Assembly: GCF_024734895.1 (NCBI RefSeq)
Contig: NZ_CP091430.1
Location: forward strand, 7,441,501-7,505,500
Reading direction: 5' to 3'
Source: Paenibacillus spongiae
GTDB taxonomy: Bacteria > Bacillota > Bacilli > Paenibacillales > Paenibacillaceae
Length of the DNA: 64,000 nt
Shown: piece by piece, positions 1-58,283 of the stretch
How the letters are laid out: each line of letters begins with the position of its first letter
Position numbering within the stretch: position 1 is the stretch's first letter
The notes under the pieces: model-generated
Told to the model about the DNA's origin: nothing
Database searches by the model: none
The model's input: only the letters and a program-made list of their open reading frames with translations
Translations under genes and position numbers: made by a program

Positions 1-1340
1 CCGAGCAAGCCGATCTGCAGGCTGATGTTCGCATCTTTGGGCTGTAACGGGCGCATGCCCTCTTCCTCCAGCAAGGCTTTGCGGTAACGGGACGCCATCC
101 CGACGTAGTCGGCTTCCGCTTTGCCTAGGAAGTAGTAGCGTACGGAGCGTCCCGATTCCGTCCGGTCTTTGGCATAGGCGAGGAAGCCCTCGGTCTTGCG
201 CGTGTTGGTCGGTTGAAAATACGGGAACCGGTAGCCGTGCTCGGCCGCGATCCAGTTGTACGGGCCGAATGATCGCGAAGGCGCCGCTACGACGCTGGCG
301 TACTCGGCCCCGTCCCGTATGACCGCAAGCATAGCGCGGTCGCCGGATTTGATGCCGAATACCGGCATGCGGACCGGCTTGCGGATCGACAGCGAACGGT
401 TGTTGCTGAACGCCCAGTCCTCTCCGTACACGCGCTCGTTGTAATAGTTGCTCTGCGTGCTGGGACGGTCGTTCTGAAACCGGACGAGCATCCCGGGACC
501 ATCCGGCACGAACAGATATCCGTCCTGCGAATCCGACGTATCCGCGCCGAGAAACGGATATAAGCGGATGCCGGATATCCGGGCATTCGGGTCCTTCTGG
601 TTCTTGCGCATTCGTTCGTATTCCTTCATCTCGTCCTTGGTCTTCCCGTCCTTCACCCCTTCGTCAACGATGCGCGTCTCCACGAAATCGTCCTGGAGCC
701 GGACCTCGACCGGGATCGCGAATCCGATCGCCGGCATCGCGAACGTCAGCTTGAAGCCGCCCTCCGTCAGCTCGAAGCCGGCGACGGCGCCCTTCTGATC
801 GAGCAGGTTGGTATCTTTCACTTGGTTCTTCTGATTGCTGTTCAGCTCCACATAACGAACGAGCAGCGCCGACTGCATATGCGTCTTCCATGCGCCGGCG
901 GCCTCCTCCTCATTCCAGCCTTCCGGATCCGGGTATGAGCGGAATACGTTGCCGTTTCGCTTGTCGATCACGATAAAATGGCCTGTCTTCGGATGCGCCC
1001 TTAACTGCAGCACAGCGCTGTCGGCAGCCGGGACAAACTCGTCGTCCCGCGGAAATGGAGATGCGCTGTCGGCGGTTGCCGGGCTATCCGCGGCTGATTG
1101 GCTGCCGGCGGCAGCGGCAGGCGCGGCCGCGCTTTCGCGGCTTTCGGCATTCGTCTCCGTTACGGACGGTTTCGCCTTCGTATCGGATGCGCTCGACGCC
1201 GCCTTCACCGTTGACGGCGAGCCGGCCGAAGGCGGACGCGCTTGGCCGGCGGCGCTTAGACCGGCCGTCGCGGCGATTCCGGCCACTATCGCGGCGATAG
1301 CGATCAGCCGGACGCGCTTGATTCGGTTCTGACGGCTCAC
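1..1340 (-). CDS. DUF5696 domain-containing protein, C-terminus beyond window edge
   Basis: The reading frame is open from a GTG at 1340 to the left edge (about 446 codons). The GTG is chosen because AGGAGG sits 7 nt upstream; the only nearby ATG is followed directly by a stop in this frame. It begins with a short basic stretch and a hydrophobic signal/anchor, then an Ala/Ser/Pro/Glu-rich low-complexity linker, then a beta-rich domain. Around residue 278 it has the motif VPDGPG, and later RMPVFGIKSGDRAMLAV and YVGMASRYRKAL. All match the full-length paralogue at 51772-54351. The family has no assigned biochemical function. I infer an extracytoplasmic, glycan-related role from its place at the end of a sugar-importer operon. 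It overlaps the stop of the upstream gene by 4 nt, so translational coupling is likely. The barrel-like C-terminal half lies outside the window. Confidence 0.85.
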   Translation of the reverse strand, partial: MSRQNRIKRVRLIAIAAIVAGIAATAGLSAAGQARPPSAGSPSTVKAASSASDTKAKPSVTETNAESRESAAAPAAAAGSQSAADSPATADSASPFPRDDEFVPAADSAVLQLRAHPKTGHFIVIDKRNGNVFRSYPDPEGWNEEEAAGAWKTHMQSALLVRYVELNSNQKNQVKDTNLLDQKGAVAGFELTEGGFKLTFAMPAIGFAIPVEVRLQDDFVETRIVDEGVKDGKTKDEMKEYERMRKNQKDPNARISGIRLYPFLGADTSDSQDGYLFVPDGPGMLVRFQNDRPSTQSNYYNERVYGEDWAFSNNRSLSIRKPVRMPVFGIKSGDRAMLAVIRDGAEYASVVAAPSRSFGPYNWIAAEHGYRFPYFQPTNTRKTEGFLAYAKDRTESGRSVRYYFLGKAEADYVGMASRYRKALLEEEGMRPLQPKDANISLQIGLL

Positions 1341-3502
1341 ATGGACACCTCCTGATAAATCGTGTACACGAAATCCTGAACCTCGGTAGACAGCCCAAAT
1401 GTAATCGAGATGAGCACCCACAGCACGATCATGGCAATGCCGGTAAGCAGGATGTTGACGATCGTCTCCCCGACGCCGAAGTTCTGCGTCGCCTGAATTT
1501 TCCAGAAGAATAGCAGACCGCACCACACGTACATCCCCGTTTCGATGAAATGATAGATCGAGCTCTCGCTCATCGTCATCACATTCGAAGCGACCGCCAG
1601 AGGCAGACCGAGCAGCACGATCGGAAACAAGGCGTACGAGCTGCCGATGAACACGTCCTTAAACCGGGCTTCGCCCTGCGTGATGCTGCCGATCAAGTAG
1701 TTGCATACAAGCCAGGTCAGCCATGTGACGCCGAACACGGTCAGAAAGGTCGTGCTCCGGTCGCTGCCCGGGATCGGGATGAACGTGAAGCTCGTGTAGA
1801 ACTGCTTCACGAGCAGCACGCAAGCCGTCATGCCGAGGATCAGCAGCGCGCTTAGGCCGCTTCCCTTCTTGCTGTAGCGCAAATCGGCAAAGCCTTCGAG
1901 CGGATGCCTCAATATCGTAAACGCATGCCTGAGCTGACCGATCAGTTCAAGTCCTCTTCTCCCCGGAACTCGCTTGCGCTTGCGCAAGGAAGGCAGCCTG
2001 CCCCGCATTCTTCCCGCCCCGATCGCGACGAAAGCGACGGCGAAAAATCCGTTCGCCATATACGAGAAGTTGCTCTGGAACCATTGCAGCCGGAGCTGCC
2101 AGAACGAGTCGGAGTAGCCCGCGGCGTCTCCGGCCATCTTGTAGTAATGAAGCGCGGCGCGGTAATCCTCCCGATGGAAGGCCGCCTCCGCCAATCCCTG
2201 GTACGCCGGCGAATAGAGCGCATTGAGCTTCAGCACTTCCTTCCAGCTGGCTTCGCTCTCCTCGTATTTGCCCTCCTGCAGCTGTTCGTACGCTCTTTCC
2301 AGAACGAGGCCGAATTCGGTCGGTTCCAGGACATGAATCAAATTCTGCGAATCGTCCAGGATGAACAGACGGTTCTTCGAATCGGACGCAACGGATGCCG
2401 GGCTTTGGCTGATGCCGAGCTGCGGCGTGCCGAACAAGACGGGACCGGTCCAGAAGAAGAGCATCTTCCCGTTCGCGGCATAGCGCATGACGGCGTTCGA
2501 CGACTTGTCGACGATCGTCATGTTGCCGTTCTTGTCCACGGTGACGTCCGTCAGCCGCCTTTTGTTCTCGTTCTCATCCGTTTGACCGGTTCCCGAACCG
2601 CCGCTTCCGCCGCTCCCCCCGGTCTCCGCTTGGCGATTTCGCATTCTGAACCCGAACGTCTTATCCTTCCACAAGTTTTCCCCGCGGATATTGAGCTTCT
2701 TCACCTGCTCGGCCTTTCCGCCGGAGACGGTATATATGTAGCCTTCGCCGTCGATGAACAAATTGGTGATCGTCTCGGGCAGCGTCCGGATCACGCGGCT
2801 GAGCTGCTCCCGGGTATAGAACGTTTTTCGGACGATATCCATCAGAGTGACCTCGGTTTGGTTCGTGCCGTAGAAACCGTAGAAATTGCCGTCAGGATCG
2901 AGCTGAATAACGCCCTGATAGCTCCCGTTCGATGTGACGAACAGAAAGCCTCTATCATCGACAACCACGCGGGTCGGTTCATACTGCACCGTCTCGTTCA
3001 TGTAGCCGGAGTCCGGGCGCTTGAATTCGCCTAGCATGCGGCCATTCTCATCGAGCTTCACGACCCGTTGGTTCCCCGTATCGGCGATGTAGATCGCGCC
3101 GTCACCGCCGACGAACACGCCCTGCGGCTTGTTCAGCTTGCTCTCCGGCACGTCGTACGCCCGTACGAATTGGCCTTCCGGGTTCAATCGCACGATCCGG
3201 TTGTTGCCCGTATCCGCGATGTAGATGTCGTCCTTCTTGTCGATGAACAAGTCCTGCGGTTGGCTCAGCGGCGAATACTCGCGGACTTGCCGGCCGTCTT
3301 TCATCTTGGTGACGTAGATATCGTTGGCGATCACTTTGGCCGGATAATAGTCCGCTTGCGTATAGATCAATCGGCCGTATCCGTCCCGGCTGAGGGTGTT
3401 GTACGGCGGTTCCGCCTGCACCTGCATTGGAAACCAGAGCGCCGAGATCGACGCGATGATGCCGAGGAGGATTGCCTGCTTTCGTAACGCATGCCTGATC
3501 AT
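1337..3502 (-). CDS. NHL-repeat / TPR / Yip1-domain fusion protein
   Basis: The product has 721 residues. The ATG at 3502 is chosen because GGAGG lies 8 nt upstream and because longer starts would run into the preceding gene. Residues 1-30 are a signal peptide ending VQA. Residues 75-395 hold about six NHL-type blades with repeated IYIADTGNNRIVRL-like strands, interrupted by a GGSGGSGGSG linker near 294-304. Residues 398-460 resemble a TPR pair, 482-497 are a membrane segment, and 525-718 are a multi-pass Yip1-type domain starting with HPLEGFADLRYSKKG. The extracellular propeller probably binds a ligand or partner, with the TPR and membrane parts mediating assembly; this is inference. In the second cassette the same parts are two genes (54965-56425 and 54364-54978). 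It lies 25 nt behind a permease gene and overlaps the DUF5696 start. Confidence 0.88.
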   Translation of the reverse strand: MIRHALRKQAILLGIIASISALWFPMQVQAEPPYNTLSRDGYGRLIYTQADYYPAKVIANDIYVTKMKDGRQVREYSPLSQPQDLFIDKKDDIYIADTGNNRIVRLNPEGQFVRAYDVPESKLNKPQGVFVGGDGAIYIADTGNQRVVKLDENGRMLGEFKRPDSGYMNETVQYEPTRVVVDDRGFLFVTSNGSYQGVIQLDPDGNFYGFYGTNQTEVTLMDIVRKTFYTREQLSRVIRTLPETITNLFIDGEGYIYTVSGGKAEQVKKLNIRGENLWKDKTFGFRMRNRQAETGGSGGSGGSGTGQTDENENKRRLTDVTVDKNGNMTIVDKSSNAVMRYAANGKMLFFWTGPVLFGTPQLGISQSPASVASDSKNRLFILDDSQNLIHVLEPTEFGLVLERAYEQLQEGKYEESEASWKEVLKLNALYSPAYQGLAEAAFHREDYRAALHYYKMAGDAAGYSDSFWQLRLQWFQSNFSYMANGFFAVAFVAIGAGRMRGRLPSLRKRKRVPGRRGLELIGQLRHAFTILRHPLEGFADLRYSKKGSGLSALLILGMTACVLLVKQFYTSFTFIPIPGSDRSTTFLTVFGVTWLTWLVCNYLIGSITQGEARFKDVFIGSSYALFPIVLLGLPLAVASNVMTMSESSIYHFIETGMYVWCGLLFFWKIQATQNFGVGETIVNILLTGIAMIVLWVLISITFGLSTEVQDFVYTIYQEVSM

Positions 3503-3527: not shown

Positions 3528-4442
3528 TTACTTGATCCCCGAATGCGCCATCGTCGCAATTACCTTCCGCTGCGATGCGATGAAGATGAGCAAATTCGGG
3601 ATGAACATGACGAGTGCCGCGGCCGACGCCGCGCCCTGCCTCGCCACGTTGTTGGCCAGATTGGCCGTGAGCGTGGTGATGTAGAACGGCAGCGTCTTCA
3701 TTGCATCGCTTTGCATGAACAAGGCGGACGTTTCCGCGTTGTTCCAGGCCGTCTGGAACGCCAGAATCGTGATGGTGGCCATTGCCGGCGTAACCAACGG
3801 GAGCATGATTCTGCGGAAAACGCCGAAATCGGAGGCCCCGTCCAGTTTGGCCGCTTCAAGCAGCTCGTTCGGCACTTGATCCATGAATTGCTTCAGGAGA
3901 AACACCCCGACGGGCAGCGCCAGCAGCGGCAGCACGTGTCCCGCGTACGTGTTCATCAGCCCGAGATGCTTGACGATGACGTATCGTGGAATCCCCATCG
4001 TCTCGACGGCGACCATCAGCGACAGCAAGATGCCGCCGAAGATGAGCTTGCGTCCGGGAAATTCATGCTTCGACAGCGGATACGCGCAGAGCGCGCCGAG
4101 CACGACCATGCCGATCGTACTGAGCACCGTCACGATCAAGCTGTTCAACATATACCGCGTCACCGGCAGCACGGCGCTCTCCGTCAGACTGAGCAGCTCG
4201 TAGAAATTCTGCATCGTCGGTTGCTCAACGAAGAAGGTAGGCGGAAACAGAAACAGCTCGTGCAAGGGCTTGAATGCATGGTTGAATATGTATACCAGAG
4301 GCAGCAGCATGAACGCGGACAGCAGCGTGAGCGACAGAACCAGCCAGATTTGCATCTTGTCCATGCCGCGGATGTCGCTGCCGTACCGGGACCAGCTTCG
4401 TGTGAATGCCTTACTGGCGCGGGTGATCGCTTGCAATCTCAC
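3528..4442 (-). CDS. Carbohydrate ABC transporter permease (MalG/UgpE type)
   Basis: This 304-residue protein has about six membrane segments and the binding-protein-dependent permease signature ELLEAAKLDGASDFGVFRRIMLPL, which is the EAA loop that docks on the ATPase. It is the second permease of the pair and ends in the usual hydrophilic MAHSGIK tail of CUT1 permeases. The start is a GTG whose last two bases belong to the TGA stop of the upstream permease (GTGA, 4-nt overlap). An AAGAAGG lies very close upstream, so expression is probably by translational coupling. An ATG at 4364 is possible but has no ribosome site. Substrate is not evident from sequence; carbohydrate import is the family role (CUT1, MalG-like). 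Its close relative in the second cassette is at 56441-57307. Confidence 0.93.
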   Translation of the reverse strand: MRLQAITRASKAFTRSWSRYGSDIRGMDKMQIWLVLSLTLLSAFMLLPLVYIFNHAFKPLHELFLFPPTFFVEQPTMQNFYELLSLTESAVLPVTRYMLNSLIVTVLSTIGMVVLGALCAYPLSKHEFPGRKLIFGGILLSLMVAVETMGIPRYVIVKHLGLMNTYAGHVLPLLALPVGVFLLKQFMDQVPNELLEAAKLDGASDFGVFRRIMLPLVTPAMATITILAFQTAWNNAETSALFMQSDAMKTLPFYITTLTANLANNVARQGAASAAALVMFIPNLLIFIASQRKVIATMAHSGIK

Positions 4443-5425
4443 TCACCTTCTTTCGGACCGAATAAATACCATAGAAAACGGCTGCCGATGATCGTCACGA
4501 ACAGCAGCACCATCGAGACGGCGCTCGCGTACCCGAGCTCGAGCCGGGTGAACGCGTAATCGTCGATATGGTTCATGAAAAGCTGTCCGGCATAGTCCGG
4601 CGTCGGGTTCATCCCCGATAATTGGGTGCCGATCCCCCCGGACTTGAGCGTGCCTACGATCGACATGACGGCGGCAAACAGCATCTGCGGCTTCATCATC
4701 GGAATCGTGATGTACCAGATCTCCTGCAGCCGGCTGCGGATGCCGTCGATCCTGGCCGCTTCGTACAGCTGCTTGTCGACGCCCAGAATGCCCGCCAATA
4801 TCGCTAGGAAGCCAAGGCCCATGCTTGCCCAGATTGAGACGACAATCATGATGGTCATCAAGTAATCCTTATCCTGCGTGAACAGGATCGGCTTCTCGAT
4901 GAACCCCCAGTTCAGCAGGAAGCTGTTAATATAACCGGTCCGGTCGCCGGTGAACATGACCTGCCAGACGACCACCAGGGCGAGACCTCCGGTAAGCGAC
5001 GGCGTATACATCGCAAGGGCGTACCATACCCGGAGGGTGCTCGGCAGCTGAGCGATCAGCCATGCCAGCATGAATGCCATAACATAGCCGACAGGGCCGA
5101 CGAAGAGGGCGAATTTAAAGGTATTCGGAATGATATGCTGCAGAAAAATGATGTCCTGCGAGAATAGCATCTGGTAATTCGTCCAGCCCGCCCATTTCGG
5201 AAACTCGATCGAGTTGAAATAGGTAAAGCCGAGCAGAATGCCGACGATGACCGGGACCACGATGAACGTGCCGAACAGGAGCAGGAACGGCGCCATATAC
5301 GCGTACGATTTCCGGTTTTTCCAAATTTCCCGCAAGAGCGCGTTCCGTTTCAGGGCGCTGCCCGTGCCAGACTTCGGGCGTGTTGCCGGCTGCGGCCGGG
5401 CTAGCTGATGCGCGTTATCGGACAA
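4439..5425 (-). CDS. Carbohydrate ABC transporter permease (MalF/UgpA type)
   Basis: This is a 328-residue inner-membrane protein with a basic cytoplasmic N-terminus of about 40 residues and six or so membrane segments. Its EAA loop is QLYEAARIDGIRSRLQEIW. It is the MalF-type partner of the permease at 3528-4442. No ATG exists before residue 44, and a TTG at 5425 is preceded by AAAGGGGTGG at a spacing of 6, so TTG is the likely start. It overlaps the end of the large binding-protein gene by 11 nt and the next permease by 4 nt, so the four genes are one translational unit. The paralogue at 57313-58269 shares the GITYFN-like first loop and the conserved position in the cassette. Confidence 0.93.
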   Translation of the reverse strand: MSDNAHQLARPQPATRPKSGTGSALKRNALLREIWKNRKSYAYMAPFLLLFGTFIVVPVIVGILLGFTYFNSIEFPKWAGWTNYQMLFSQDIIFLQHIIPNTFKFALFVGPVGYVMAFMLAWLIAQLPSTLRVWYALAMYTPSLTGGLALVVVWQVMFTGDRTGYINSFLLNWGFIEKPILFTQDKDYLMTIMIVVSIWASMGLGFLAILAGILGVDKQLYEAARIDGIRSRLQEIWYITIPMMKPQMLFAAVMSIVGTLKSGGIGTQLSGMNPTPDYAGQLFMNHIDDYAFTRLELGYASAVSMVLLFVTIIGSRFLWYLFGPKEGE

Positions 5426-8402
5426 GCTGATCCACCCCTTTCCACGGCTCGGTCACTTCGGGAAGGTCAAGCGGCTTCAGAATTTCGCCGTCTTCGCCGA
5501 CGATATGGAATTCCTTCCCCTTGCGGGCCAGCTCGCGCTTGATCTCCTTGATCGCTTTCTCCAGCGACAGCCGGTAATTAACCGCGTCCACCGCCGTCCG
5601 GTTCCAGGCAAAGCCCAGCTCCCTCGCCGTCATGTAGCCTCCGGGAACCTGCGGAATCTCTTTCGTCCATTTCCACTGCTCCAGAATGACGTTCAGGTCG
5701 TCCCGTTTCCACGGCATGCGCGCGAACGCCTCCACATTGGCGGAGTTCCACCGGAACGATTCCCCGTAGAACTGCTCGAGATTTTGGCCGAACTCCGACT
5801 GCGTCTCGGTCGATACGTACCACTGCAGAAATTGCCACGCCTTCTCCCGGCGATCGCCCGACGTTGCCTTGAACAGCATGGCGTTCTGCGGGTTCGAGCC
5901 GCCCGCCCAGCGGACGATGCTGCCATCCGGTTGGACGGTGCCCGGAACGGGGGCGATGCCCCACTCGTTCGTAATTTCCGGTGCAGCGACAAGAAGCTGC
6001 ATGTACATGTTGAAATCGGCCACTCCGATGGGCATCTCGCCGCTGCGGAACCGGTTGTAGAAGCTTTGGACGACGCGGTCGAGACCCCGTTTGTTGTAGA
6101 AATCGGTCCAGGTCTTAAACGAAGCGAACGACTCGGGCGAATCCAGCCCCGTCGTCGTACCGTCCTGAGAGTAAAGCTCGACGCCGCTCTGGAAGAACAT
6201 CGGCGTGAAATCCGCCGGATCCATGTAAAAGTTGTACTGGTTCTGCAGCAGCGTCGGCAGCATCTTGTTCACGTCGTCCCACGTATCGGGGACGTTCAAT
6301 TTCAGCTGTCGGAGGATATCCTTCCGGTAAAACAGCACCTTGAAGTTGATCGTCTCCGGCAGGCCGTAATACCCCCCGTCGTAGTAAAACGGCAGAAGCG
6401 TGCCGGGGTGGTACCGTGCGAACAACTCGTCCGCGCCGGGCAGCTTGCTCAAATCGAGCGCCGCGTTCCGCAGCGCCATGTCGAACGGGAAATTCGCCGG
6501 AACACCAAGCGCGACATCCGGCATCATGCCGGCCGCGTTGGCCAGAATTAGCATATCCGCGCTGGGGACCAGATTGATCTTCACCTTGATTCCCGTTTCG
6601 GGCGTGAACCGCTCGTCCGAGAGCTGCTGCAGCTCGTTGACGTAGTCGCGCCCGTAAACCATCCAGACGTTCAGCACGTTCTCCGAGCCCGTCTCGAAGC
6701 TTTCCTCGTTACGGAACGAATATGCGAGCGAGCTGAAGATCCCCTTCGCCTTTTCCAGCGCGTTCGCGGTCATGCGCGGAAGCTCCGCTCCGTAAGAAGA
6801 GACATAAATCCGGTCTACCTGCAGAGAGCTTGCCGCGAGATCCGCCTTCTTCGACTCGAGCGTTTCTTGGACGGCGCCGAGCGTCGTTATCGAATAAGGA
6901 ATCTTGTTCGGGCGGCGAAGCAGCGAGTCCAGGTCTTTCGCAGCGATCCGAAGCGATTGCGCCACATCGTCCACCTCACGGTTAATCTGTTTCATCCGCT
7001 CGACCAGATCATCCACCTGACCGTGCAGCGACCGAAGCCGCTCCGTGATCCCCGGCATGTCCCGCTCCACGTCCCAAACCCGGTATTTGTCCTCCCGATT
7101 GCCCGTCATCGTGCGAATTTCGAGCACGATCGCGCGCAGCTCCTTCGACGCCCGGTTCATGCGGGCGATGACGGGCGTATACGGATCGTAGTTGGCCGTC
7201 ATCGTGAGCGTATGTTTGCCTTTCGTCAGATAAAAGGCGTACGGCTCACCGCGTTCGTCCGCTATCGAGAGGCCCTGCCACTTGCTTGAGTAGGGGAACA
7301 AATAGCTCGCCATTTCTTGAAAAGGCAGCTTGCCGTCGATCTCGATCGAACGGAATACCGACTTGTTCTTGCTTGCGTTCTGGTTCACGCGCATGTTCAG
7401 CTTATACAGCCCATCGTCAGGCACCTCGATCTCCCAGGATACCGACTGGCCTCCCTTCGACCAACGGGCGCCGCCCAGCGTGTTGTAGGCGATTGTTTTC
7501 AGTGCCCGCGGCGATGTCCGCGGGTCGCGGTCGTACATGTTCTGTATCGCAGGAGACGACTTGGCGCTGGCATTCTCCCCTTCCGCGACTACGACTGTAC
7601 CGCCTTGCCCAGCATCGGCCGGATACGCCCGTTTCGCCTCTTCGTAAGCAGGGACGGCCTCCTGCGGCTTCAGCGTGATCGCTTCGAGCGCGAACGGCTC
7701 GCGTATCGCTTCAATGCGGATCCGGTTGACGCCTTTGTTCAAGCGCCACAGGAGCGGCCTCTCGTAAGCACCGTCGGAATCCGTGAACGGCTTCGTCTTC
7801 CAGCCGCCGATTTCGGCGATCTGCGCGCGCATTTCGTTGCCCGCCGCGTCGCGCTTCGCGGGAAGCACGTCCCGGAATGCGCGGTCGAATGCCATTGAGC
7901 GCGCCTCCCGGAACGGAAAACCGCCATTGATCCGGGCCGCCAGAATGACCGGTTGCCGGCTCCCGCCATGTTCTGCGGCGAGCGGATAATAATCGGCCGC
8001 CATCTCGTAGAGACCGTCTTCCCCTACGCTCACCTCGTATTCGACCCAGCCTTTCTGGCTTTGCCAGATCAAGACGCCGCTCTTCCCTTGATAAGTGCCG
8101 GCAACGGCGTCCGCCTCCGCCGACTTTCGCGCGAACTGCGCGGCGGATATGCGAATGGTTTCGGTTCCCGCCGCGACGCCTTCACTTTTCCAATTCTCCG
8201 CTGTTTCCGAATAGTACGGTCCCAGCTCCATGTCCTCCGTAAGGGACTGCTCCCCCTTACTTTCGCCTGCTGCGGCCGATTCCGCGTGCGTCATATCCGG
8301 GCCGACGCCGGCGCCCGAGGAGACCGATAGCGCCATCAGCAAGGCGAGGAGCAATGCGGCAGCGCCGCGTTTTCCGATGATGCGTTTCCTGCGTTGGTTC
8401 AC
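5415..8402 (-). CDS. Large secreted fusion: two CBM-like modules, helical stalk, ABC solute-binding domain
   Basis: At 995 residues this is more than twice the usual length of a sugar-binding protein. Residues 1-40 are a signal sequence (THA-ES cleavage likely) without a lipobox cysteine. Residues about 80-245 and 265-430 look like two related beta-sandwich carbohydrate-binding-type modules, each with a W-EYEV/W-EIEVP..GLY core and an IDGKLPFQE-like strand. Residues 440-550 are helical and coiled-coil-like. From about 575 to 960 there is a family-1-type extracellular solute-binding domain, with FTPETGIKVKINLV, GLPETINFKVLFYRKDIL, NRFRSGEMPIGVADF and EWGIAPVPGT. It presumably captures glycan chains and hands sugars to the adjacent permeases. 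The start is GTG with AAGGAGG 8 nt upstream. It lies 13 nt after the ATPase gene. How it stays at the membrane is unclear; an uncleaved anchor is possible. Confidence 0.9.
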   Translation of the reverse strand: MNQRRKRIIGKRGAAALLLALLMALSVSSGAGVGPDMTHAESAAAGESKGEQSLTEDMELGPYYSETAENWKSEGVAAGTETIRISAAQFARKSAEADAVAGTYQGKSGVLIWQSQKGWVEYEVSVGEDGLYEMAADYYPLAAEHGGSRQPVILAARINGGFPFREARSMAFDRAFRDVLPAKRDAAGNEMRAQIAEIGGWKTKPFTDSDGAYERPLLWRLNKGVNRIRIEAIREPFALEAITLKPQEAVPAYEEAKRAYPADAGQGGTVVVAEGENASAKSSPAIQNMYDRDPRTSPRALKTIAYNTLGGARWSKGGQSVSWEIEVPDDGLYKLNMRVNQNASKNKSVFRSIEIDGKLPFQEMASYLFPYSSKWQGLSIADERGEPYAFYLTKGKHTLTMTANYDPYTPVIARMNRASKELRAIVLEIRTMTGNREDKYRVWDVERDMPGITERLRSLHGQVDDLVERMKQINREVDDVAQSLRIAAKDLDSLLRRPNKIPYSITTLGAVQETLESKKADLAASSLQVDRIYVSSYGAELPRMTANALEKAKGIFSSLAYSFRNEESFETGSENVLNVWMVYGRDYVNELQQLSDERFTPETGIKVKINLVPSADMLILANAAGMMPDVALGVPANFPFDMALRNAALDLSKLPGADELFARYHPGTLLPFYYDGGYYGLPETINFKVLFYRKDILRQLKLNVPDTWDDVNKMLPTLLQNQYNFYMDPADFTPMFFQSGVELYSQDGTTTGLDSPESFASFKTWTDFYNKRGLDRVVQSFYNRFRSGEMPIGVADFNMYMQLLVAAPEITNEWGIAPVPGTVQPDGSIVRWAGGSNPQNAMLFKATSGDRREKAWQFLQWYVSTETQSEFGQNLEQFYGESFRWNSANVEAFARMPWKRDDLNVILEQWKWTKEIPQVPGGYMTARELGFAWNRTAVDAVNYRLSLEKAIKEIKRELARKGKEFHIVGEDGEILKPLDLPEVTEPWKGVDQLVR

Positions 8403-8415: not shown

Positions 8416-9531
8416 TTAATCGGTTAACAGCAGTTCCGTATCTTTACTGAAAAACAACGCCTTCTCCATGTTGACGGCCGCGGATACGTTCGAACGGTCA
8501 TCGAACCGGACATGATCCTGGGCACGGACGATCAAGTTCTTCTCCTTCTTGATGTCCAGATGATAGAACCGGTCGGAGCCGATAAATTCGTCGAGCCTTA
8601 TCGCTCCGGAAATCACGCAGCGGGGAGCAGCCTCGCGGCGGCTGTCGTCGAAGCTCATATGCTCGGCGCGGATGCCCATGATCACCGTGCGATCGATCAG
8701 ATTATGCTCTCTCAGCTGCGCGGCCTGCTTCGGCGTCAGCCTGAGCGAGAACCGGCTCGTGCCGAATTCAAGCTCCCCTTCGTTCTCCTCCAGCTTGCCC
8801 TCGATGAAGTTCATGGGCGGATTGCCGATAAAACCGGCGACGAACATGTTCACGGGACGGTTATAGATCGTCTCCGGCGTGGCAACCTGCTGAATAACCC
8901 CGCGATTCATGACGACCACGCGGTCGCCCATCGTCATCGCCTCAATCTGATCGTGCGTGACATAGATGGTCGTGACACCGATTTTTCGCTGCAGGCCGAT
9001 GATCTCCGTGCGCATCTGCACGCGGAGCTTGGCGTCGAGGTTGGAGAGCGGTTCGTCCATCAGGAACACCTGCGGCGTCCGGACGATCGCCCTGCCGAGA
9101 GCCACCCGCTGGCGCTGGCCGCCGGACAGCTCGCGCGGCTTCCGGTTCAGGTAGTTCCCAATCTCAAGCACGCGCGCGGCCCGTTTCACCGCCAAATCGA
9201 TCTCGTGCTTGGGCAGCTTGCGAAGCCTGAGCCCGAAGGCGATGTTCTCGTAAACGCTCATATTCGGATACAGCGCATAGTTCTGAAACACCATCGATAT
9301 GTCCCGGTCCTTGGGCGGAATGGGATTTACCTTCTTGTCGCCGATGAAGATCTCGCCCTCCGAAATGTCTTCGAGCCCGGCGAGCATCCGCAGCGTCGTG
9401 GATTTTCCGCAGCCGGACGGCCCGACCAGCACCACGAATTCCTTGTCTTCGACAGAAAGATGGAAGTCGTCGACCGCGGTATCTTTATTGCCGTATTTCT
9501 TATAGACATGATGAAATGAAATGCTGGCCAC
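8416..9531 (-). CDS. Sugar ABC transporter ATPase (UgpC/MsmX type)
   Basis: This 371-residue cytoplasmic ATPase powers CUT1-type importers. Visible motifs are Walker A GPSGCGKST, the Q-loop region FQNYALYP, the signature LSGGQRQRVALGRAI, Walker B VFLMDEPLSNLDA and the H-loop YVTHDQ. A C-terminal TOBE/OB regulatory region follows (residues 240-371, IMGIRAEHMS). The start is GTG at 9531 with GGAGG 9 nt upstream; the upstream in-frame extension is basic and not conserved-looking. It is the only ABC ATPase gene in the window, while three permease pairs are present. MsmX-type ATPases in Bacillus serve several importers, so a shared role is plausible. It sits between a membrane-protein gene (20 nt upstream) and the fusion binding protein (13 nt downstream). 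Confidence 0.95.
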   Translation of the reverse strand: MASISFHHVYKKYGNKDTAVDDFHLSVEDKEFVVLVGPSGCGKSTTLRMLAGLEDISEGEIFIGDKKVNPIPPKDRDISMVFQNYALYPNMSVYENIAFGLRLRKLPKHEIDLAVKRAARVLEIGNYLNRKPRELSGGQRQRVALGRAIVRTPQVFLMDEPLSNLDAKLRVQMRTEIIGLQRKIGVTTIYVTHDQIEAMTMGDRVVVMNRGVIQQVATPETIYNRPVNMFVAGFIGNPPMNFIEGKLEENEGELEFGTSRFSLRLTPKQAAQLREHNLIDRTVIMGIRAEHMSFDDSRREAAPRCVISGAIRLDEFIGSDRFYHLDIKKEKNLIVRAQDHVRFDDRSNVSAAVNMEKALFFSKDTELLLTD

Positions 9532-9551
9532 GATGAAATCCCTCCGTTTGT

Positions 9552-10385
9552 TTACATATGCATGTAGGACACGTGATCTTGGCGCGCCTGCTGTAGAAGA
9601 AGCATCAAGGACAATTGAATGCCGCTCATGACGTAACCGTAAACGACGATGCCAAGCGCGACGACGGCCGGCGTCCATGCCCACTGAACCAGCATGCCGA
9701 TCAAGCCTGCCGCGGCGAACATGACCGACATTGTCAAGACGGTCGGAACGAAGCATTGCTTCATATAGCGGAAGCTGTTCCGGAAGGCCTCGACCAACCG
9801 CGCATTATCGACGATGAGCGTAAATTCCGCATACGCGTATAAGACCCTCAAGATGACGAATAGAATGAACGCGGCCGCCGGTCCGATATTCGCGAATAGA
9901 ATCGCGCCGATCATGACGCAGCTCATCTTGCCGAGGTACACGATCGCGTTAAACAAGGCGAAGCGAAGCCAATAGTCTCTTCCATATCGCAGATATTGCG
10001 TGAAGGCGACCCGCTTCCCCTCCGCGATCTGCCGCAGCGCCGCGATATATCCCCCTTGCGCGAAGGCCGATAGGAGCAGCATCGCTGCCACAATCGGGAG
10101 CGCATAGGCGGGCTTGACGGTCGAGCCGAGCAGATTCATCCCGTTCGCGAACAAGGGGGCATCCAGCGCGTGATGAACCGAAGGCAATCCCATTCCGAGA
10201 ACGATCTGAAACGACAACCCGGAATCGCCGCCGAAACCGATGAGCAGCACGCCCAGGACAAAGCCGAAGAAGTCGAGCGCAATCGGGTATATCGCAAGGC
10301 CCGGATGACGATTTAATGTTCGAAACGCTGCAAGCAACGCTCCATCCCCTTTCCTTGCCGGCATGCGGCTTGAATGTGAGGCCAT
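9552..10385 (-). CDS. Polytopic membrane protein of unknown function, first gene of the importer operon
   Basis: The product is about 277 residues with five to six membrane segments. It begins with an NRHPGLAIYPIALDFFGFVLGV-like segment and ends in a hydrophobic C-terminus. I do not recognise a characterised family; the pattern resembles the long membrane domains seen beside some glycan systems in Paenibacillus. The start is uncertain. The ATG at 10385 has no clear ribosome site; an ATG at 10364 or a TTG at 10337 (8 nt behind AAGGAAAGGGG) are alternatives, and the longer upstream frame looks non-coding. Spacing of 20 nt to the ATPase gene places it in the same operon. Its relation to transport is inferred only from position. 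Confidence 0.7.
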   Translation of the reverse strand: MASHSSRMPARKGDGALLAAFRTLNRHPGLAIYPIALDFFGFVLGVLLIGFGGDSGLSFQIVLGMGLPSVHHALDAPLFANGMNLLGSTVKPAYALPIVAAMLLLSAFAQGGYIAALRQIAEGKRVAFTQYLRYGRDYWLRFALFNAIVYLGKMSCVMIGAILFANIGPAAAFILFVILRVLYAYAEFTLIVDNARLVEAFRNSFRYMKQCFVPTVLTMSVMFAAAGLIGMLVQWAWTPAVVALGIVVYGYVMSGIQLSLMLLLQQARQDHVSYMHM

Positions 10386-14846: not shown

Positions 14847-15536
14847 CTATTTAGCTCCTGCTTTCAGCAGGATTTGTTCAATCTCTTTGAAGCCCTTCAC
14901 TTGCGCATGCTGCAAGGGCGTTACCTTATTGTTGTCCGGGATGTTCACATCCGCACCATGATCAATAAGCAATTGCACCGTTTGCTGCTGTTTCTCGCCG
15001 CCGTCATTCAAGATGACGGCTTCCATCAGAGCTGTCCAGCCCAGGTTGTTGATGTGGTTGACATTGATATCCGTATTCGTGAGAAGCTCCTTGACCACAT
15101 CCACATAACCGTGCTCCGAGGCAGGGATCAGGGCCGTTCCTCCATACCGGTTCGTAATCGAAGGATCCGCGCCCGCGCCGATGGTAAGCTTCAGGATTTC
15201 CAAGTACCCTTCGGCACCCGCATACAGGAAGGGGCTGTTCTTCATATCGTCCTGGATGTTCACATCCGCACCCGCTTCAATCAGGACTTTCACCGTCGCG
15301 GCATCGTTATTGTATGTCGCGATCATCGTTGCGGTTCTTCCCTTAGCATCCTGTGCATTGACATTGGCGCCTTCTTGAATCAGCTTGGCGATCGTTTCGA
15401 TCTCGCCGCGCTCAGATGCTTGAATAAGTTGTTTATCCATAGGTACCTCCTGTCTTTCCGGCTCTTTCCTGTCGTTCGAGACACAGCCCTGAAGGACGAA
15501 TATGCAGCCTAGTGCCAGCATCAGCCATTTCCTCAT
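14847..15536 (-). CDS. Ankyrin-repeat lipoprotein
   Basis: The product has 229 residues. The ATG at 15536 is preceded by GGTGGAG. A lipoprotein signal ends in LQGC, with the acylated Cys at 18. Residues 40-229 are about five to six ankyrin repeats (ANVNAQDAKGRTATMIATYNN, GADVNIQDDMKNSPFLYAGAEG, TALIPASEHGYVDVVKELL, GADVNIPDNNKVTPLQHAQVKG). It is a membrane-tethered, extracytoplasmic protein-protein interaction module. Its partner is unknown. It lies 74 nt downstream of the SLH-domain gene on the same strand. Confidence 0.88.
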   Translation of the reverse strand: MRKWLMLALGCIFVLQGCVSNDRKEPERQEVPMDKQLIQASERGEIETIAKLIQEGANVNAQDAKGRTATMIATYNNDAATVKVLIEAGADVNIQDDMKNSPFLYAGAEGYLEILKLTIGAGADPSITNRYGGTALIPASEHGYVDVVKELLTNTDINVNHINNLGWTALMEAVILNDGGEKQQQTVQLLIDHGADVNIPDNNKVTPLQHAQVKGFKEIEQILLKAGAK

Positions 15537-15610
15537 GATAATCTCCACCTTTAGCTTGCTGATCTTATCTTGGGGAACCGCTTCAGTATAAGCCGCCGCT
15601 TCAGCTTCGT

Positions 15611-17092
15611 TTATTCCATCGTTACGGTTACCGCAGAGGCAGTCGCCCACTCGCCGGCAGGCGTCACGGTGTATGCCGTACCCGCGCTCATGGCCCCCTT
15701 GTCTGCGATATCGAATACGCCTACAGCGCCTTTACGGCTGGAATACTTGTACGTTGCAGTAAGCTTGTCGCCATTCGGAGCTGTTAGAACAACACTGCGG
15801 CCGGAGAATAGTTCATCGCCCGGATCCTGCGCCAAAGCGACCTGGATCGAAGTCTCGCTTACGGCTTCAGCGCCCGTAATTTGCAGCGGCTCGAATGCCT
15901 TGGCTACGAACGAAGCATTCGCCACATTCGCCCAGTCCGATGTTACGGTATATTTTACACCAGGGATTAGCTTTTGTCCTTCCGGCAGACGGAATTTCGG
16001 CTCCTGCTTCCCGTCCGTCGATTGCGTGAACGGTACGTACTTGGCCACGATCGGCTGTCCGTTCTCCGGCGTAATCGTCACTTGTCTAGCCTGCATCGAC
16101 GGAATGACTTGATAGGTCGTCCCATTCGCCTGTTCACGGTCGTTCAGGACGAATGCATTCTCGCCGCGGCCGCCGCTGTAGGCTGCGATGACATATCCGT
16201 AGTCAACGACGCCACTCCCCTTCAACGATTCAAGCTCGAACGTATCGCCCGCGACCTGTCTTGCCTCTGTCATCTCCAATTTCGTTCCGATTCCCTCGAA
16301 GGAGCCTGCTTTCTTGCCTTTATGGGTGAGCGTATACGTCATTCCCGGCTGCTGAACGGATGTCGGAACGATATAGGTCGAGACCGAGCCCGTCTTCAGA
16401 CGCGGCATATTCGTCAATGTCAGACCGCTGCTGAAGACGAAATCCTCCTTCGCCTTGGCGAACGCTTCATCGGCCGCCGTCAGCGGCTTATCGAAGGTTA
16501 CGATCAGCGTAATGGCATTGAGCGATCTCACGTTTGTAATCTTCGCATTCTCGGAAGGAATCGCTTGACGGGCGGTATGGAGCAAGTGGGCCGTCTCCCC
16601 GCGGGATACGGTGCTGCCAGCCGTATAGAAGGCTTCCATCCAGTGCTGGACGGATTTCACATCGCGCTGGAGCGCCTTGGCCACGACTTGAACGAGCTCG
16701 TCGTCCGTTACGGCTCCTTGCGGATTAAACGCGCCGTTCTCGGCTTGCATGATTCCTAAACCGACGACTTCAGCCGCGTAATCGTAATACCAGGCTTTCG
16801 GATTCGCATCCGTAAGCTCAGCCGGCTGCTCGGCCTTATCTTTCAGATCGAAGGTTTTGTACACCAATTTGGCCAGTTCAGCGCGGGTGAGCTGGTTATT
16901 TTCATTCATTTTATTCAAATAGCCTTCCATAATGCCAAGCCGATTCAGCTCTTTAACGGCCGCTTGAATCTCTTGGTCGGAAAGCTGGGATACTGATGCT
17001 GCTTGTACATTCGTTGCCACGCTCGGCAGCGAAGCTGCCCCTAAGGCTGCAATTGTCAGGATTGCTGCGACTTTTTTGGAAATAGGGTTCAT
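15611..17092 (-). CDS. S-layer-homology (SLH) domain protein
   Basis: The product has 493 residues with a signal peptide (NVQAAS). Residues 35-180 carry two to three SLH-type motifs (AAVKELNRLGIMEGYLN..NNQLTRAELAKLVYKTF and WYYDYAAEVVGLGIMQAENGAFNPQGAVTDDELVQVVAKAL). These anchor proteins to pyruvylated wall polymers. The rest is beta-rich with repeated Ig-like strands (ITNVRSLNAITLIVTFDKPL, ITGAEAVSETSIQVAL) and ends in TVTME. GAGGAGG lies 9 nt before the ATG. It follows the OmpR/histidine-kinase genes on the same strand with a gap of about 136 nt, so a regulatory link to that pair is possible but not shown. Confidence 0.85.
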   Translation of the reverse strand: MNPISKKVAAILTIAALGAASLPSVATNVQAASVSQLSDQEIQAAVKELNRLGIMEGYLNKMNENNQLTRAELAKLVYKTFDLKDKAEQPAELTDANPKAWYYDYAAEVVGLGIMQAENGAFNPQGAVTDDELVQVVAKALQRDVKSVQHWMEAFYTAGSTVSRGETAHLLHTARQAIPSENAKITNVRSLNAITLIVTFDKPLTAADEAFAKAKEDFVFSSGLTLTNMPRLKTGSVSTYIVPTSVQQPGMTYTLTHKGKKAGSFEGIGTKLEMTEARQVAGDTFELESLKGSGVVDYGYVIAAYSGGRGENAFVLNDREQANGTTYQVIPSMQARQVTITPENGQPIVAKYVPFTQSTDGKQEPKFRLPEGQKLIPGVKYTVTSDWANVANASFVAKAFEPLQITGAEAVSETSIQVALAQDPGDELFSGRSVVLTAPNGDKLTATYKYSSRKGAVGVFDIADKGAMSAGTAYTVTPAGEWATASAVTVTME

Positions 17093-45885: not shown

Positions 45886-48348
45886 CTAGTTGGCCGTATT
45901 ATACAAGCTCCGCAGCAGCAATTGATCTTGGAGCTGTTCTTTGGTCAGCTGCGAGGATAGGCTTGATTTCAAGACGGTTACCTCTTTCGGGGCATTCGCC
46001 GAAACATCGAAGTAATTGTCGCTGAAGCGGCAATCCGCATCGCGCAATTTCAATTCCACGAATTTGGCGAACGCCTGACCCTCTACGCGAATATGGAAGG
46101 CATCCGCTTCTTCATAGACGGTCGCCGTCAGATTCGGATCGGCAAACTCGAAGTGCTTCGGCTTCACGAACAGAACGGTCCCCTCGCTTACGATATCCCC
46201 TTCCCGCTTCAACGAGAACTCGAAATACGAGGATCTTAGACGGTCATGGTCCGCGAGCTGCTGTGCAAAGTCGAACTCAATCGCCTTCACGCTGCTTAGA
46301 CGGTCCACGTTCATTTCCATGGAGCCTTGCTCCAGGACAGCCGATCCCGCATCCCGAAGCTTCCACTCCAGTAGAGCCGGGACAGCATCCGGCGATTCGT
46401 TCGAGACATGCAGCTCAACCTTCGTGCCCGTCTCCATAGCCGAAACCAGGAGCGGATTAAAGAACCGCTTGGACGCATAATGCAGCGCCTTCCACCTTCC
46501 GAACGAATCGATGCTCGACCAGGAAGCGACCGGCCAGCAGTCGTTGAGCTGCCAGTAGATCGCCCCCATGCATCTGCCGCGATGCCGGCGCCAGTGCTCG
46601 ACGCCGTATTTGATGGCATCCGCCTGCAGAAGCTGGGATACATAGACAAGCGAGTCCAGATCCTTCGGATACAAGTAGTTCTCCGAGATTTGCGACAAGA
46701 TTTTCCCGTTGCCCCCCGGACATCTCTGATGCTGCTCCATAATATACGAGAATACGTTGCGGTCTCCCGGCTCCGTGAACGATTCGATCGTCTTCAGCTC
46801 CGGGAAGGACTGGAAGCCGAACTCGGAACAAAAGCGGAAGTAATAGTCGCGGTATGCGGTAAACGGCGTCGTTCCATGCCATACTTCCCAGTAATGAACA
46901 TCGCCGCGGTCCGGATCGTTCGGCTTATCGAAGCTGCCTCCCGACGAAGGCGAGGCTGGCCAATAGAACTGGTTCGGATCATGCTCCTTGACGACTTCCG
47001 GAAGCAGAATCTCGAACTGCTTCAAATAGTCGAAACGCAGCTTAGGCGTCTTCGGGAAGCCCCAGTCCGCCCAACCAAGCTCCAGCTCGTTGTTGCCGCA
47101 CCACAGTCCGAGCGAAGCGTGATGACGGATTCGGCGGATATTATCGATCGCTTCCTGACGGATCGTCTCGGCGAACGCGTCATTCATATCGTACACGGCG
47201 CAGGAGAACATGAAGTCCTGCCAGACGATCAAGCCGTACTCATCGCACAAGTCGAAGAAGTAATCTTCCGGATAAATGCCGCCGCCCCAGACGCGGATCA
47301 TGTTGTGATTGGCGGCTACGCAATCCTGGATAAGCCGCTGCGTCTTCTCCCGGCTGCAGCGGCTCAGCACGTTATCCTCGGGAATGTAATTGCCGCCCAT
47401 GCTGAAAATCGCTTCCCCGTTGATGACGACTTCGAACGATTCACCCCATTCGTCAGGCTCCTGGCGCACCGTTATCGTGCGCAGACCGATCCGTTTGACT
47501 TGACGGTCAAGTAGGGTGCCTTCCTTCTTCAATGCAATCTCCACATCGTACAGCGGCTGCTTGCCATAACCGTTCGGCCACCAGATTTGCGGGTCCTTGA
47601 TCGCGATTGAAATCGTCGATTTCTGCTGTTCTACGGTTGCCGTGCCACTCAGCGTGCGGCCATTCGGCTCCGTGACGAGAACTTCGATCTCCAGCTGCCC
47701 GCCGGACCAGTTATCCGGCTGAACGGCCACGTCCAGCACAACCTTGCCTTCGCCATGATGCTGCGTCATATATACATCCTGAAGACGCGCTTCGGAGAAC
47801 GTCTGGATATAAATATTTCGCCAGATCCCCGCATCCGGGACGACGGGACCCCAATCCCAGCCGAACATATAGTGCGCCTTGCGCAAATGGGCAAACGGCA
47901 TATCGTTCAAATTAACCGTCCACAGATCGTTAACCGCGTTCTTCTCGTGAATATATTTGACCGGGGAGCGGAAGAGAATATGAATGTCGTTTGCGCCTGT
48001 CCGGATGTACGGTTTGATGTCGAATTCATAGGTGCGGTGCATATTATCCGTCGTCGCGATCAGGGTGTCATTGATTCTTACTTCGCTGAGCGTATCCAAC
48101 CCTTCGCAAACAAGCAGCACCTTGTCTTGAGCGAGCAGGTCGGCATCCACCGTGAATTGCCGCCGGTATTCATAATCATGCTTGGCAGCCTCGGTCGTAT
48201 GCTTGTCGTTATCGCGGTAGAAAGGATCGTCCAGCATCCCCAGATTCAGCATATCGGCCACGACGGATCCCGGGACCTGCCCGGTTAACCAATCCGCGTC
48301 GGTGGTCTTCTTGAATGCCCACTGTCCGTTTAAGCTTAGTTTATTCAA
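45886..48348 (-). CDS. GH2 beta-mannosidase
   Basis: The product has 820 residues, the usual length. The N-terminal sugar-binding domain (1-190) has FGWDWGPVVPDAGIWRNI. An immunoglobulin-like domain and the TIM barrel follow, with IRVWGGGIYPEDYFFDLCDEYG. The acid/base E421 is in LWCGNNELELG and the nucleophile E509 in FRFCSEFGFQSFP. The MFGWDWGP plus NNELELG pattern is typical of mannosidases rather than galactosidases. It removes terminal mannose from beta-1,4-mannooligosaccharides in the cytoplasm. The start is TTG at 48348 with GAGGAG 10 nt upstream. Confidence 0.95.
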   Translation of the reverse strand: MNKLSLNGQWAFKKTTDADWLTGQVPGSVVADMLNLGMLDDPFYRDNDKHTTEAAKHDYEYRRQFTVDADLLAQDKVLLVCEGLDTLSEVRINDTLIATTDNMHRTYEFDIKPYIRTGANDIHILFRSPVKYIHEKNAVNDLWTVNLNDMPFAHLRKAHYMFGWDWGPVVPDAGIWRNIYIQTFSEARLQDVYMTQHHGEGKVVLDVAVQPDNWSGGQLEIEVLVTEPNGRTLSGTATVEQQKSTISIAIKDPQIWWPNGYGKQPLYDVEIALKKEGTLLDRQVKRIGLRTITVRQEPDEWGESFEVVINGEAIFSMGGNYIPEDNVLSRCSREKTQRLIQDCVAANHNMIRVWGGGIYPEDYFFDLCDEYGLIVWQDFMFSCAVYDMNDAFAETIRQEAIDNIRRIRHHASLGLWCGNNELELGWADWGFPKTPKLRFDYLKQFEILLPEVVKEHDPNQFYWPASPSSGGSFDKPNDPDRGDVHYWEVWHGTTPFTAYRDYYFRFCSEFGFQSFPELKTIESFTEPGDRNVFSYIMEQHQRCPGGNGKILSQISENYLYPKDLDSLVYVSQLLQADAIKYGVEHWRRHRGRCMGAIYWQLNDCWPVASWSSIDSFGRWKALHYASKRFFNPLLVSAMETGTKVELHVSNESPDAVPALLEWKLRDAGSAVLEQGSMEMNVDRLSSVKAIEFDFAQQLADHDRLRSSYFEFSLKREGDIVSEGTVLFVKPKHFEFADPNLTATVYEEADAFHIRVEGQAFAKFVELKLRDADCRFSDNYFDVSANAPKEVTVLKSSLSSQLTKEQLQDQLLLRSLYNTAN

Positions 48349-48516: not shown

Positions 48517-49803
48517 CTATTTGAACTGCGGCAGGACATCCTCGTGAATGCTCATCAATTCCCGGATCGCCAGGAGAGCCTGCTTCTTGTCTTCGATAGC
48601 CGGATCGAGCATAACGGCTTCTTCCACCATCGCCCGGTCTCCGTTCACCGCGGCATCGGCAACCAAGCTATGAACGGCCGATACGTTGGCGCACAGCTCG
48701 CCTACCGGATCAGGCAGCGCGTCGATTCGGGCTCCTTGAAGCTGACCGTCCTTCACATATGCCGGAACTTCCACGATCGCCCCTTCAGGAAGATTGGAGA
48801 TGAAGCCTTTGTTGGCGATGTTGACCATATCCAGCTTGAGCGGCGTTCCGTGAACGAGCGCATCGATAACGAGCCCCGGACGTTCCCACGATCTTCCCTG
48901 CATGAGAGGCAGCCACGGTCCTGTGCCGGCGGCGGCGGCTTCCATCATGCGGATCCGCTCTTCGCGTTCTTCCGGATTGCCGTGATAGCCATGGGCGCTC
49001 GCCGGAAAGGAGAGGTCGTACGGCAGAAATTCGCCGGTATGGGAATCGCCGGCAAGCGGCAGCCAGCCGTATTGATCGAACCATTTTCTCGACCGCTTAT
49101 TCCAGGGCCATGCACCTTTCTCGATCGCTTGGCGGACTTGCGGCAGCAAATCTTCACCGCTTTGCTTGTCGCGGACCGACAACAGCCAGCTGAAATGGTT
49201 TAGCCCCCCGCTGACGATATCCAGCTCGTGCTGATTGCGTCCGAGCCATTCCCCGATTTGCTCGTAGCCGTCGATTCCCCCGTTCGCCACGTTGCAGAAG
49301 CCCGCCGCCCGAATGGACGTATGCCGGGTAATGGCCGTCATGACGCGCGGCAATGGATTCGATACGTTAAACAGCCACGCTTGCGGACATAGTCGTTCCA
49401 TATCCTTGGCGATATCGAGCATTAACGGAATGGCACGCAGCGCATAGGAGATGCCCCCCACGCCGCCGCACTCGCTCGTAATCTCATTCAGTCCGTATTT
49501 CTCAATGACGGCCCGGTCCATGGCATACCGTTTGACAATGCCGACCGCTACCGACGTGCTGACGTAATCGGCACCGCGCAGTGCCTCTTCCCGGCTCGTC
49601 GTCGCTTCGATCAGCATGTCCACGCCTTGCTCTTCCGCCATGCGGCGGGCGATCCCCGCCATCGTTTCCGCCATCTTCCCGTTCACGTCCATCAGCACCA
49701 AATGGCTGCCGGGGAACTTCCGCTCCACGATCAAATCGTATAGCAGCCCCATGCTGAATACGTAACTCCCTGCGCCAATCATAGCGATTTTCGGATGTCT
49801 CAT
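48517..49803 (-). CDS. GH4-family NAD/metal-dependent glycosidase
   Basis: The product has 428 residues. The NAD-binding start is KIAMIGAGSYVFSMGLLYDLI. The GH4 metal and catalytic residues are visible: NVSNPLPRV (N149), FCNVANGG (C170) and GLNHFSW (H203). GH4 enzymes use NAD+ and Mn2+ with a redox elimination mechanism and can act on alpha- or beta-linked, phosphorylated or free sugars; specificity is not deducible. AGGAGG precedes the ATG. It lies between the second permease pair and the GH2 gene and probably trims an intracellular oligosaccharide side chain. Confidence 0.92.
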   Translation of the reverse strand: MRHPKIAMIGAGSYVFSMGLLYDLIVERKFPGSHLVLMDVNGKMAETMAGIARRMAEEQGVDMLIEATTSREEALRGADYVSTSVAVGIVKRYAMDRAVIEKYGLNEITSECGGVGGISYALRAIPLMLDIAKDMERLCPQAWLFNVSNPLPRVMTAITRHTSIRAAGFCNVANGGIDGYEQIGEWLGRNQHELDIVSGGLNHFSWLLSVRDKQSGEDLLPQVRQAIEKGAWPWNKRSRKWFDQYGWLPLAGDSHTGEFLPYDLSFPASAHGYHGNPEEREERIRMMEAAAAGTGPWLPLMQGRSWERPGLVIDALVHGTPLKLDMVNIANKGFISNLPEGAIVEVPAYVKDGQLQGARIDALPDPVGELCANVSAVHSLVADAAVNGDRAMVEEAVMLDPAIEDKKQALLAIRELMSIHEDVLPQFK

Positions 49804-49847: not shown

Positions 49848-50846
49848 TTACCCAACTACGCCCGAACGCTCGACACTCTCGACGAAATAGCGCTGGACGA
49901 ACAAATACAATACGATAAGCGGCAGGATGGCAAGCAAAATGCCTGTATCCACGACCATGGCCACATGATTCGGATCGGGCTCTGCGCCCGGACTGGCGAT
50001 CATCAAGGCATTATTGATATATGCCGAAGCATGCGCCGGCAGCGATGCGATTTTATTCGACAGCAGCTCGGCTTCGCCCATGAAGAGCGACGTATAGAAG
50101 GTGTCGTTGTACTGCCATACGAACGCAAACAGCATGACCGTAATCAGAGGCGCGGTTGCGTTGGGCAGCATGATCCGGAAGAAGGTTTTGAAACCTCCCG
50201 CGCCATCGATAAGGGCCGCTTCCTCGATTTCTTTCGGAAGTCCCTTGAAGAATTGTCTGAAAATATAAATATACAAGCCCGACTTCAAGCCGTTGGCCGT
50301 CATCGACGTAATGATCGATGGCGTCAAGGTATTGATGGTATTCACGCCGTCTTTCCCGGTAAACAAATGGATGATCCCCATAATATCGAAGTTCCGGAAG
50401 TGAAGGTACATCGGCACCATCAACGTGCTCGTCGGAATCAGAATGGTCAAGATGACCAGCATGAACAACACATTGCTGCCAGGGAACGAGAAACGGGCGA
50501 AGCCGTAACCGGCCATTGCGCATGAAGCCGCCTGCAGCAGCATCGTGAGCACGACGTATAGCAAGGTGGTGCCGAGCGCCGGAAAGAAATTCAATACTTC
50601 GGCGGCCATCTTGATGTTATCCCACGTGAAATGCTGCGGAACCAAGAATATCGTCGGATTATAAATGTCTTGTTTATCCATGATCGCAACCGATATCTTC
50701 AGCAGGATCGGATAGATGATAATGAATGAAATCCCGATGATAATGACATAGCGGAACAGCGACCACAGCCATGCGGCCGACTTCGTTCTTACGCGGTTTG
50801 TCCGGTACATCAATTCTGTTTGCTGCTGCATCTTCGCAGGTGTCAT
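49848..50846 (-). CDS. Carbohydrate ABC transporter permease (MalG type), pair 2
   Basis: The product has 332 residues. The ATG at 50846 has AAGGAG 11 nt upstream; the longer frame lacks membrane-protein character and overlaps the upstream gene. The N-terminal cytoplasmic segment is followed by six membrane segments. The EAA loop is EIEEAALIDGAGGFKTFFRIMLPNATAP. It partners the MalF-type permease 26 nt upstream. The two probably work with the lipoprotein binding protein 61349-62725, the only normal-length binding protein in the locus. Confidence 0.93.
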   Translation of the reverse strand: MTPAKMQQQTELMYRTNRVRTKSAAWLWSLFRYVIIIGISFIIIYPILLKISVAIMDKQDIYNPTIFLVPQHFTWDNIKMAAEVLNFFPALGTTLLYVVLTMLLQAASCAMAGYGFARFSFPGSNVLFMLVILTILIPTSTLMVPMYLHFRNFDIMGIIHLFTGKDGVNTINTLTPSIITSMTANGLKSGLYIYIFRQFFKGLPKEIEEAALIDGAGGFKTFFRIMLPNATAPLITVMLFAFVWQYNDTFYTSLFMGEAELLSNKIASLPAHASAYINNALMIASPGAEPDPNHVAMVVDTGILLAILPLIVLYLFVQRYFVESVERSGVVG

Positions 50847-50872
50847 CGATGGAAGCGCTCCTTTCCTGCGGA

Positions 50873-54351: not shown

Positions 54352-54363
54352 TATGCGGCCTCC

Positions 54364-56425: not shown

Positions 56426-56440
56426 CAGAACTTCTCCCCC

Positions 56441-57307: not shown

Positions 57308-57312
57308 GATCG

Positions 57313-58269: not shown

Positions 58270-58283
58270 CCTTAACCCCTTCC

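Follow-up and report, generated by a model that had tools for sequence, protein, structure and literature searches.

An NHL-TPR-Yip1 protein, encoded by one gene or two, as a probable accessory subunit of carbohydrate ABC importers

Why would a protein be encoded as a single chain in one gene cassette and as two overlapping genes in another cassette of the same genome? The question arises in a 64,000-nt stretch of the Paenibacillus spongiae genome (hereafter the window), in which a single minus-strand reading frame with an ATG start, preceded shortly 5′ by GGAGG, encodes an NHL-TPR part and a Yip1 part together, and a second cassette encodes the two parts separately. The genes and gene segments concerned are as follows.

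1337–3502, minus strand: fused NHL-TPR-TM-Yip1 protein, 721 aa, cassette 1 (translation; Pfam; AlphaFold2, pLDDT 90)
2003–3502, minus strand: NHL propeller, TPR and membrane helix segment of the fused protein, residues 1–500 (BLASTP to 54965–56425; model)
1340–1918, minus strand: Yip1 segment of the fused protein, residues 529–721 (BLASTP to 54364–54978; PF04893)
54965–56425, minus strand: separate NHL-TPR-TM protein, 486 aa, cassette 2 (translation; Pfam; BLASTP)
54364–54978, minus strand: separate Yip1 protein, 204 aa, cassette 2 (Pfam; BLASTP)

BLASTP aligns residues 9–485 of the fused protein with the 486-aa protein at 27% identity (E 2e-52), and residues 530–719 with the 204-aa protein at 29% identity (E 3e-28). 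The original prediction took the two parts of the fused protein to be counterparts of the two separate genes, and staked itself on homology of the second half to the 204-residue protein; both correspondences hold. The motif that it placed at the joint (HPLEGFADLRY/HPFEGFWDMKY) is indeed found where the Yip1 match begins. In the split form, the two genes lie in different frames with a 14-nt overlap, the TAA stop of the NHL gene ending at 54965 and the Yip1 ATG beginning at 54978, which places this start codon inside the 3′ end of the NHL gene as had been described.

The fused protein is composed, in order, of a signal peptide, an NHL propeller, TPR helices, one membrane helix, and a Yip1 domain. 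Pfam finds NHL (PF01436) in both N-terminal parts (E 2e-16 in the fused and 7e-17 in the split form), together with weaker TPR matches in both, and Yip1 (PF04893) in both C-terminal parts, at 31.3 bits (P0001) and 60.4 bits (P0003), above the curated cut-off of 28.6 bits. An AlphaFold2 model of the fused protein, computed from 53 aligned fused relatives, has a mean pLDDT of 90 and a pTM of 0.81. It features a signal-peptide helix at residues 2–23, propeller strands at approximately 35–394, and TPR helices at 396–457, followed by a helix at 460–500, a loose linker at 501–513, helices at 515–543, and the long helices of a multi-span Yip1 membrane fold at 549–720, with pLDDT mostly above 90. The best matches to the propeller among solved folds are NHL domains, such as that of TRIM71 (Foldseek, E 2e-17). 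A PDB sequence search with the Yip1 part alone gave no match to E 1, a result that does not imply a novel fold, and a search against PHROGs returned one weak match, to the TPR region only.

We read the end of helix 460–500 in the model as crossing the membrane. Judged by hydropathy only, a hydrophobic helix after the TPR region and then a basic stretch are present in 97% of 126 fused and 96% of 49 split forms, with a median of 8 lysine or arginine residues in the basic stretch of the fused and 5 in that of the split forms. Because this arrangement is common to both, the split point is predicted to lie in a basic, cytoplasmic linker, and the two forms are predicted to share the same topology.

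How has the protein come to exist in two states? The 188 distinct relatives comprise 138 fused and 50 split forms. On a quick tree built from NHL plus Yip1, the state changes 8 times, compared with a mean of 44 when the states are shuffled, and the states are stable within clades; a mixture-model tree of 48 relatives contains 7 changes, 6 of which are forced by well-supported branches, and trees with one origin account for 0% of its bootstraps. As the trees are unrooted, fusion and fission are indistinguishable in them. The relatives thus display the natural fusion/fission relation that had been proposed, with at least 6–8 changes and on a broader scale than claimed. The two window copies themselves are, however, not a direct parent-daughter pair: they fall in distant clades, and are best regarded as two samples of a family with several state changes. 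Sequencing or assembly error as the cause of the split was ruled out, as the split state is conserved across many species and clades. The trees exclude L056, L082, L105, and L159, which have broken or repeated frames (in L159, for instance, the end of Yip1 is shifted out of frame) and are pseudogenes or assembly errors.

Beyond the two halves themselves, the original prediction lacked a larger fact, namely, that the NHL-Yip1 pair is a fixed part of a cassette for ABC importers that is conserved and usually double. The remaining cassette genes of the window, and two glycosidase genes downstream of cassette 2, are listed here.

1–1340, minus strand: DUF5696 protein, cassette 1, N-terminal part; it runs off the window and its exact start is not settled
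3528–4442, minus strand: ABC permease B (PermB), cassette 1
4439–5425, minus strand: ABC permease A (PermA), cassette 1
5415–8402, minus strand: large solute-binding protein (SBP), cassette 1, 995 aa, with SBP_bac_1 in its C-terminal half (Pfam)
8416–9756, minus strand: MalK/MsmK-like ATPase, cassette 1 (ABC_tran and OB_MalK); the start of the frame is uncertain
45886–48348, minus strand: GH2 beta-mannosidase-like enzyme, downstream of cassette 2
48517–49803, minus strand: GH4 glycosidase, downstream of cassette 2
49848–50954, minus strand: ABC permease 4 (Perm4), cassette 2
50873–51775, minus strand: ABC permease 3 (Perm3), cassette 2
51772–54351, minus strand: DUF5696 protein, cassette 2, with an N-terminal membrane helix and a GH129-like fold (PF18952, E 2e-225; model; fold search)
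56441–57316, minus strand: PermB, cassette 2
57313–58269, minus strand: PermA, cassette 2
58284–61226, minus strand: large SBP, cassette 2
61349–62725, minus strand: second, small SBP adjoining cassette 2, 458 aa, lipoprotein-like

Elsewhere in the window (14847–15650) is a gene for an ankyrin-repeat protein with a lipoprotein-like start.

The genome, a single contig of 7.61 Mb, contains 19 NHL-Yip1 copies, 13 fused and 6 split, all in one gene order: large SBP (approximately 980 aa), PermA, PermB, NHL-Yip1, DUF5696, Perm3, and Perm4. The counts match, with 19 NHL-Yip1, 19 DUF5696, and 19 large SBP genes, and all 18 genomic matches to PF04893 lie within a cassette, the nineteenth Yip1 being under the threshold. 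A MalK-like ATPase is an optional first gene, present in only about half of the cassettes, and motifs of the EAA type of ABC permeases are present in all four permease types. Most cassettes are adjoined by a small second SBP, whose position varies: it may precede the large SBP, separate PermB from NHL-Yip1, or follow Perm4 (examples besides that of the window are L036:7274–8683 and L191:13013–14362). A double ABC-importer cassette of seven to nine genes is repeated 19 times in this one genome (L021–L038 and window 49848–62725), with the adjoining glycosidases differing from copy to copy.

The same cassette order recurs in approximately 130 further loci, from Paenibacillus, Cohnella, Gracilibacillus, MAGs of Clostridia and Christensenellaceae, and seven Chloroflexota MAGs, in a search biased to fused forms by its use of the fused protein as query. 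A second sample, anchored on DUF5696 and free of this bias, comprises 40 Bacillota loci, some genomes having given several. NHL-Yip1 is directly adjacent to DUF5696 in all 39 evaluable loci of this sample, the one further locus being cut by a contig end. Approximately 16 of its loci have NHL-Yip1, DUF5696, Perm3, and Perm4, mostly with a small SBP, and no large SBP, PermA, or PermB in the stretch seen, which is limited in some cases by contig ends; in L205, L223, and L225, these three genes are located downstream instead. On the basis of such loci, the pair would belong to the Perm3-Perm4 importer.

Its constant neighbor, DUF5696, is modeled (pLDDT 90) as an N-terminal membrane helix followed by a fold of the GH129 type. 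The likeness to the GH129 glycosidases (NagBb and ZgGH129) is one of fold, with matches to 5opq (Z 30.5 over 581 residues, 4.2 Å) and 5wzn (Z 29.6) and then to GH101, and of profile, with 5wzn found at E 2e-13. In contrast to these enzymes, DUF5696 carries an N-terminal membrane helix, always adjoins permease genes, and has no conserved column at the canonical nucleophile. In a single profile alignment, D486 of ZgGH129, the residue replaced in the D486N mutant and one that we take to be the catalytic aspartate nucleophile, is aligned with G651 of DUF5696, in an unconserved column occupied elsewhere by A, S, E, D, N, Q, and others; nearby D656 is conserved in 41 of 46 sequences. The canonical GH129 site has thus likely been lost, and since this rests on one profile alignment, DUF5696 may either be a binder or use another acid. 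Our literature search, with subscription papers mostly outside its reach, found no paper mentioning DUF5696.

Clues to the substrate come from the glycosidase neighbors, which make it likely that the cassettes take up glycans and that the substrates differ between cassettes. In addition to the GH2 and GH4 enzymes beside cassette 2, GH35, fucosidase, and GH43 genes adjoin other cassettes. A GH85 endohexosaminidase gene lies beside cassette 1, just left of the window (L038:2947–4995), and suggests N-glycan use.

What, then, might the fused or split protein do? We infer that it is probably an accessory subunit of a carbohydrate ABC importer, an obligate one on our best reading, of which NHL-TPR and Yip1 would form the two halves. 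That these halves are in direct contact, as the original prediction held, is very probable; equal copy number, equal predicted topology, and strict adjacency strengthen the case. The importer would be composed of the CUT1-like Perm3/Perm4 pair and the small SBP, usually doubled by a second importer (large SBP, PermA, and PermB). The propeller and TPR would lie outside the cell; from there, one helix would pass through the membrane to a short basic cytoplasmic linker, beyond which Yip1 would be embedded in the membrane. Yip1 could dock the subunit on the permeases, and the propeller could hold or sense the binding protein, DUF5696 with its membrane anchor and GH129 fold, or both, although we regard this division of roles as more doubtful than probable.

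Part of the evidence could be accounted for by proximity of the genes. In the split pairs, NHL and Yip1 distances correlate at 0.97, which shows co-inheritance, as expected in an operon, and not contact: genes of an operon co-inherit and correlate in distance with or without contact between their products, and overlapping neighbors can be fused by a small mutation without prior contact, both of which count against the contact reading. The two products might simply act in the same pathway without meeting, their overlapping genes being joined on occasion by a frameshift or the loss of a stop, for which little change would be needed, given that 43 of 49 split pairs overlap. We consider this improbable. 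Adjacent cassette genes other than NHL and Yip1 also overlap or abut, yet appear as separate frames in the annotation of approximately 200 loci, and the stability of state within clades, with far fewer changes than with shuffled states, likewise argues against it. The overlaps would also permit the split pairs to be made as one protein by programmed ribosomal frameshifting, but the Yip1 frame relative to NHL varies (+1 in 25 pairs and +2 in 23, out of 49), contrary to one conserved frameshift, and 40 of the 49 chosen Yip1 starts have a Shine-Dalgarno match of at least 4 nt, a count to be read with the fact that the choice of start favored such matches. Frameshifting therefore appears very improbable indeed.

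Two further alternatives concern function. The propeller and TPR might read glycan or binding-protein occupancy outside the cell, and Yip1 relay this inward, to either the permeases or a regulator. The predicted link between an extracellular propeller and a polytopic domain through a short cytoplasmic linker would suit a sensor, and prokaryotic Yip1 proteins have been put forward in a review as possible transporters or receptors (PMC6682643), but no cytoplasmic signaling domain is found in the protein by Pfam or in the model, and the described gene order includes no regulator gene; we judge this role unlikely. Alternatively, the propeller could be an enzyme, similar to Vgb lyase or gluconolactonase, acting on the imported glycan. 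The fused protein has a weak Vgb_lyase match and an SGL match above its cut-off in Pfam, and streptogramin lyases are among the fold matches. However, the Vgb_lyase match is under its cut-off, SGL is weak in the split protein, and NHL binding domains and designed propellers head the fold matches, ahead of the lyases, so that we give an enzymatic role little credence.

An accessory importer subunit remains the preferred reading. We tentatively suggest, with somewhat less than even confidence, that the cassettes represent a new class of carbohydrate ABC importer, widespread in Bacillota and also present in Chloroflexota, in which a possibly noncatalytic, membrane-anchored GH129-fold protein and the propeller-TPR-Yip1 protein form an obligate surface complex presenting glycans to one or two permease pairs. 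If true, bacterial Yip1 proteins would acquire a definite role, namely, to form the membrane portion of a subunit of an importer. Since this family links Yip1 covalently to an extracellular domain, and to a defined importer cassette that occurs 19 times in one genome, that role is directly testable; the cassettes also make up a large group of candidate glycan-uptake systems that have gone undescribed. No paper joining NHL repeat, Yip1, and ABC transporter was found in the literature search, again with subscription papers mostly outside it, nor was one found on Yip1 with Paenibacillus and solute-binding. According to a review, no function has been reported for prokaryotic Yip1 proteins (PMC6682643); the exception that we found is YknW of Bacillus, a Yip1-family protein that modulates assembly of the YknXYZ ABC exporter (PMC4887032).

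YknWXYZ, in which a Yip1-family membrane protein works with an ABC transporter, is the nearest precedent for NHL-TPR-Yip1. It differs in being a MacB-type exporter with a membrane fusion protein, and an NHL propeller, a binding protein, and DUF5696 are undescribed in that work (PMC4887032). NHL-Yip1 is encoded with BPD_transp_1 importer permeases rather than with partners of the YknW type (MacB-type YknZ and membrane fusion protein YknX); by analogy, then, it would work like YknW at most, and it is not a member of the YknW system. With the NHL-repeat propellers of TRIM71 and PknD it shares the propeller fold, at approximately 20% identity to the best fold matches, whereas the propeller here is followed by TPR, a membrane helix, and Yip1. 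The cassettes as a whole most resemble CUT1 importers of the MalFGK/MsmEFGK type, having SBP_bac_1 binding proteins, BPD_transp_1 permeases with an EAA loop, and a MalK-like ATPase, but they differ in their two permease pairs, their usually two binding proteins, and the presence of NHL-Yip1 and DUF5696 in every evaluable locus.
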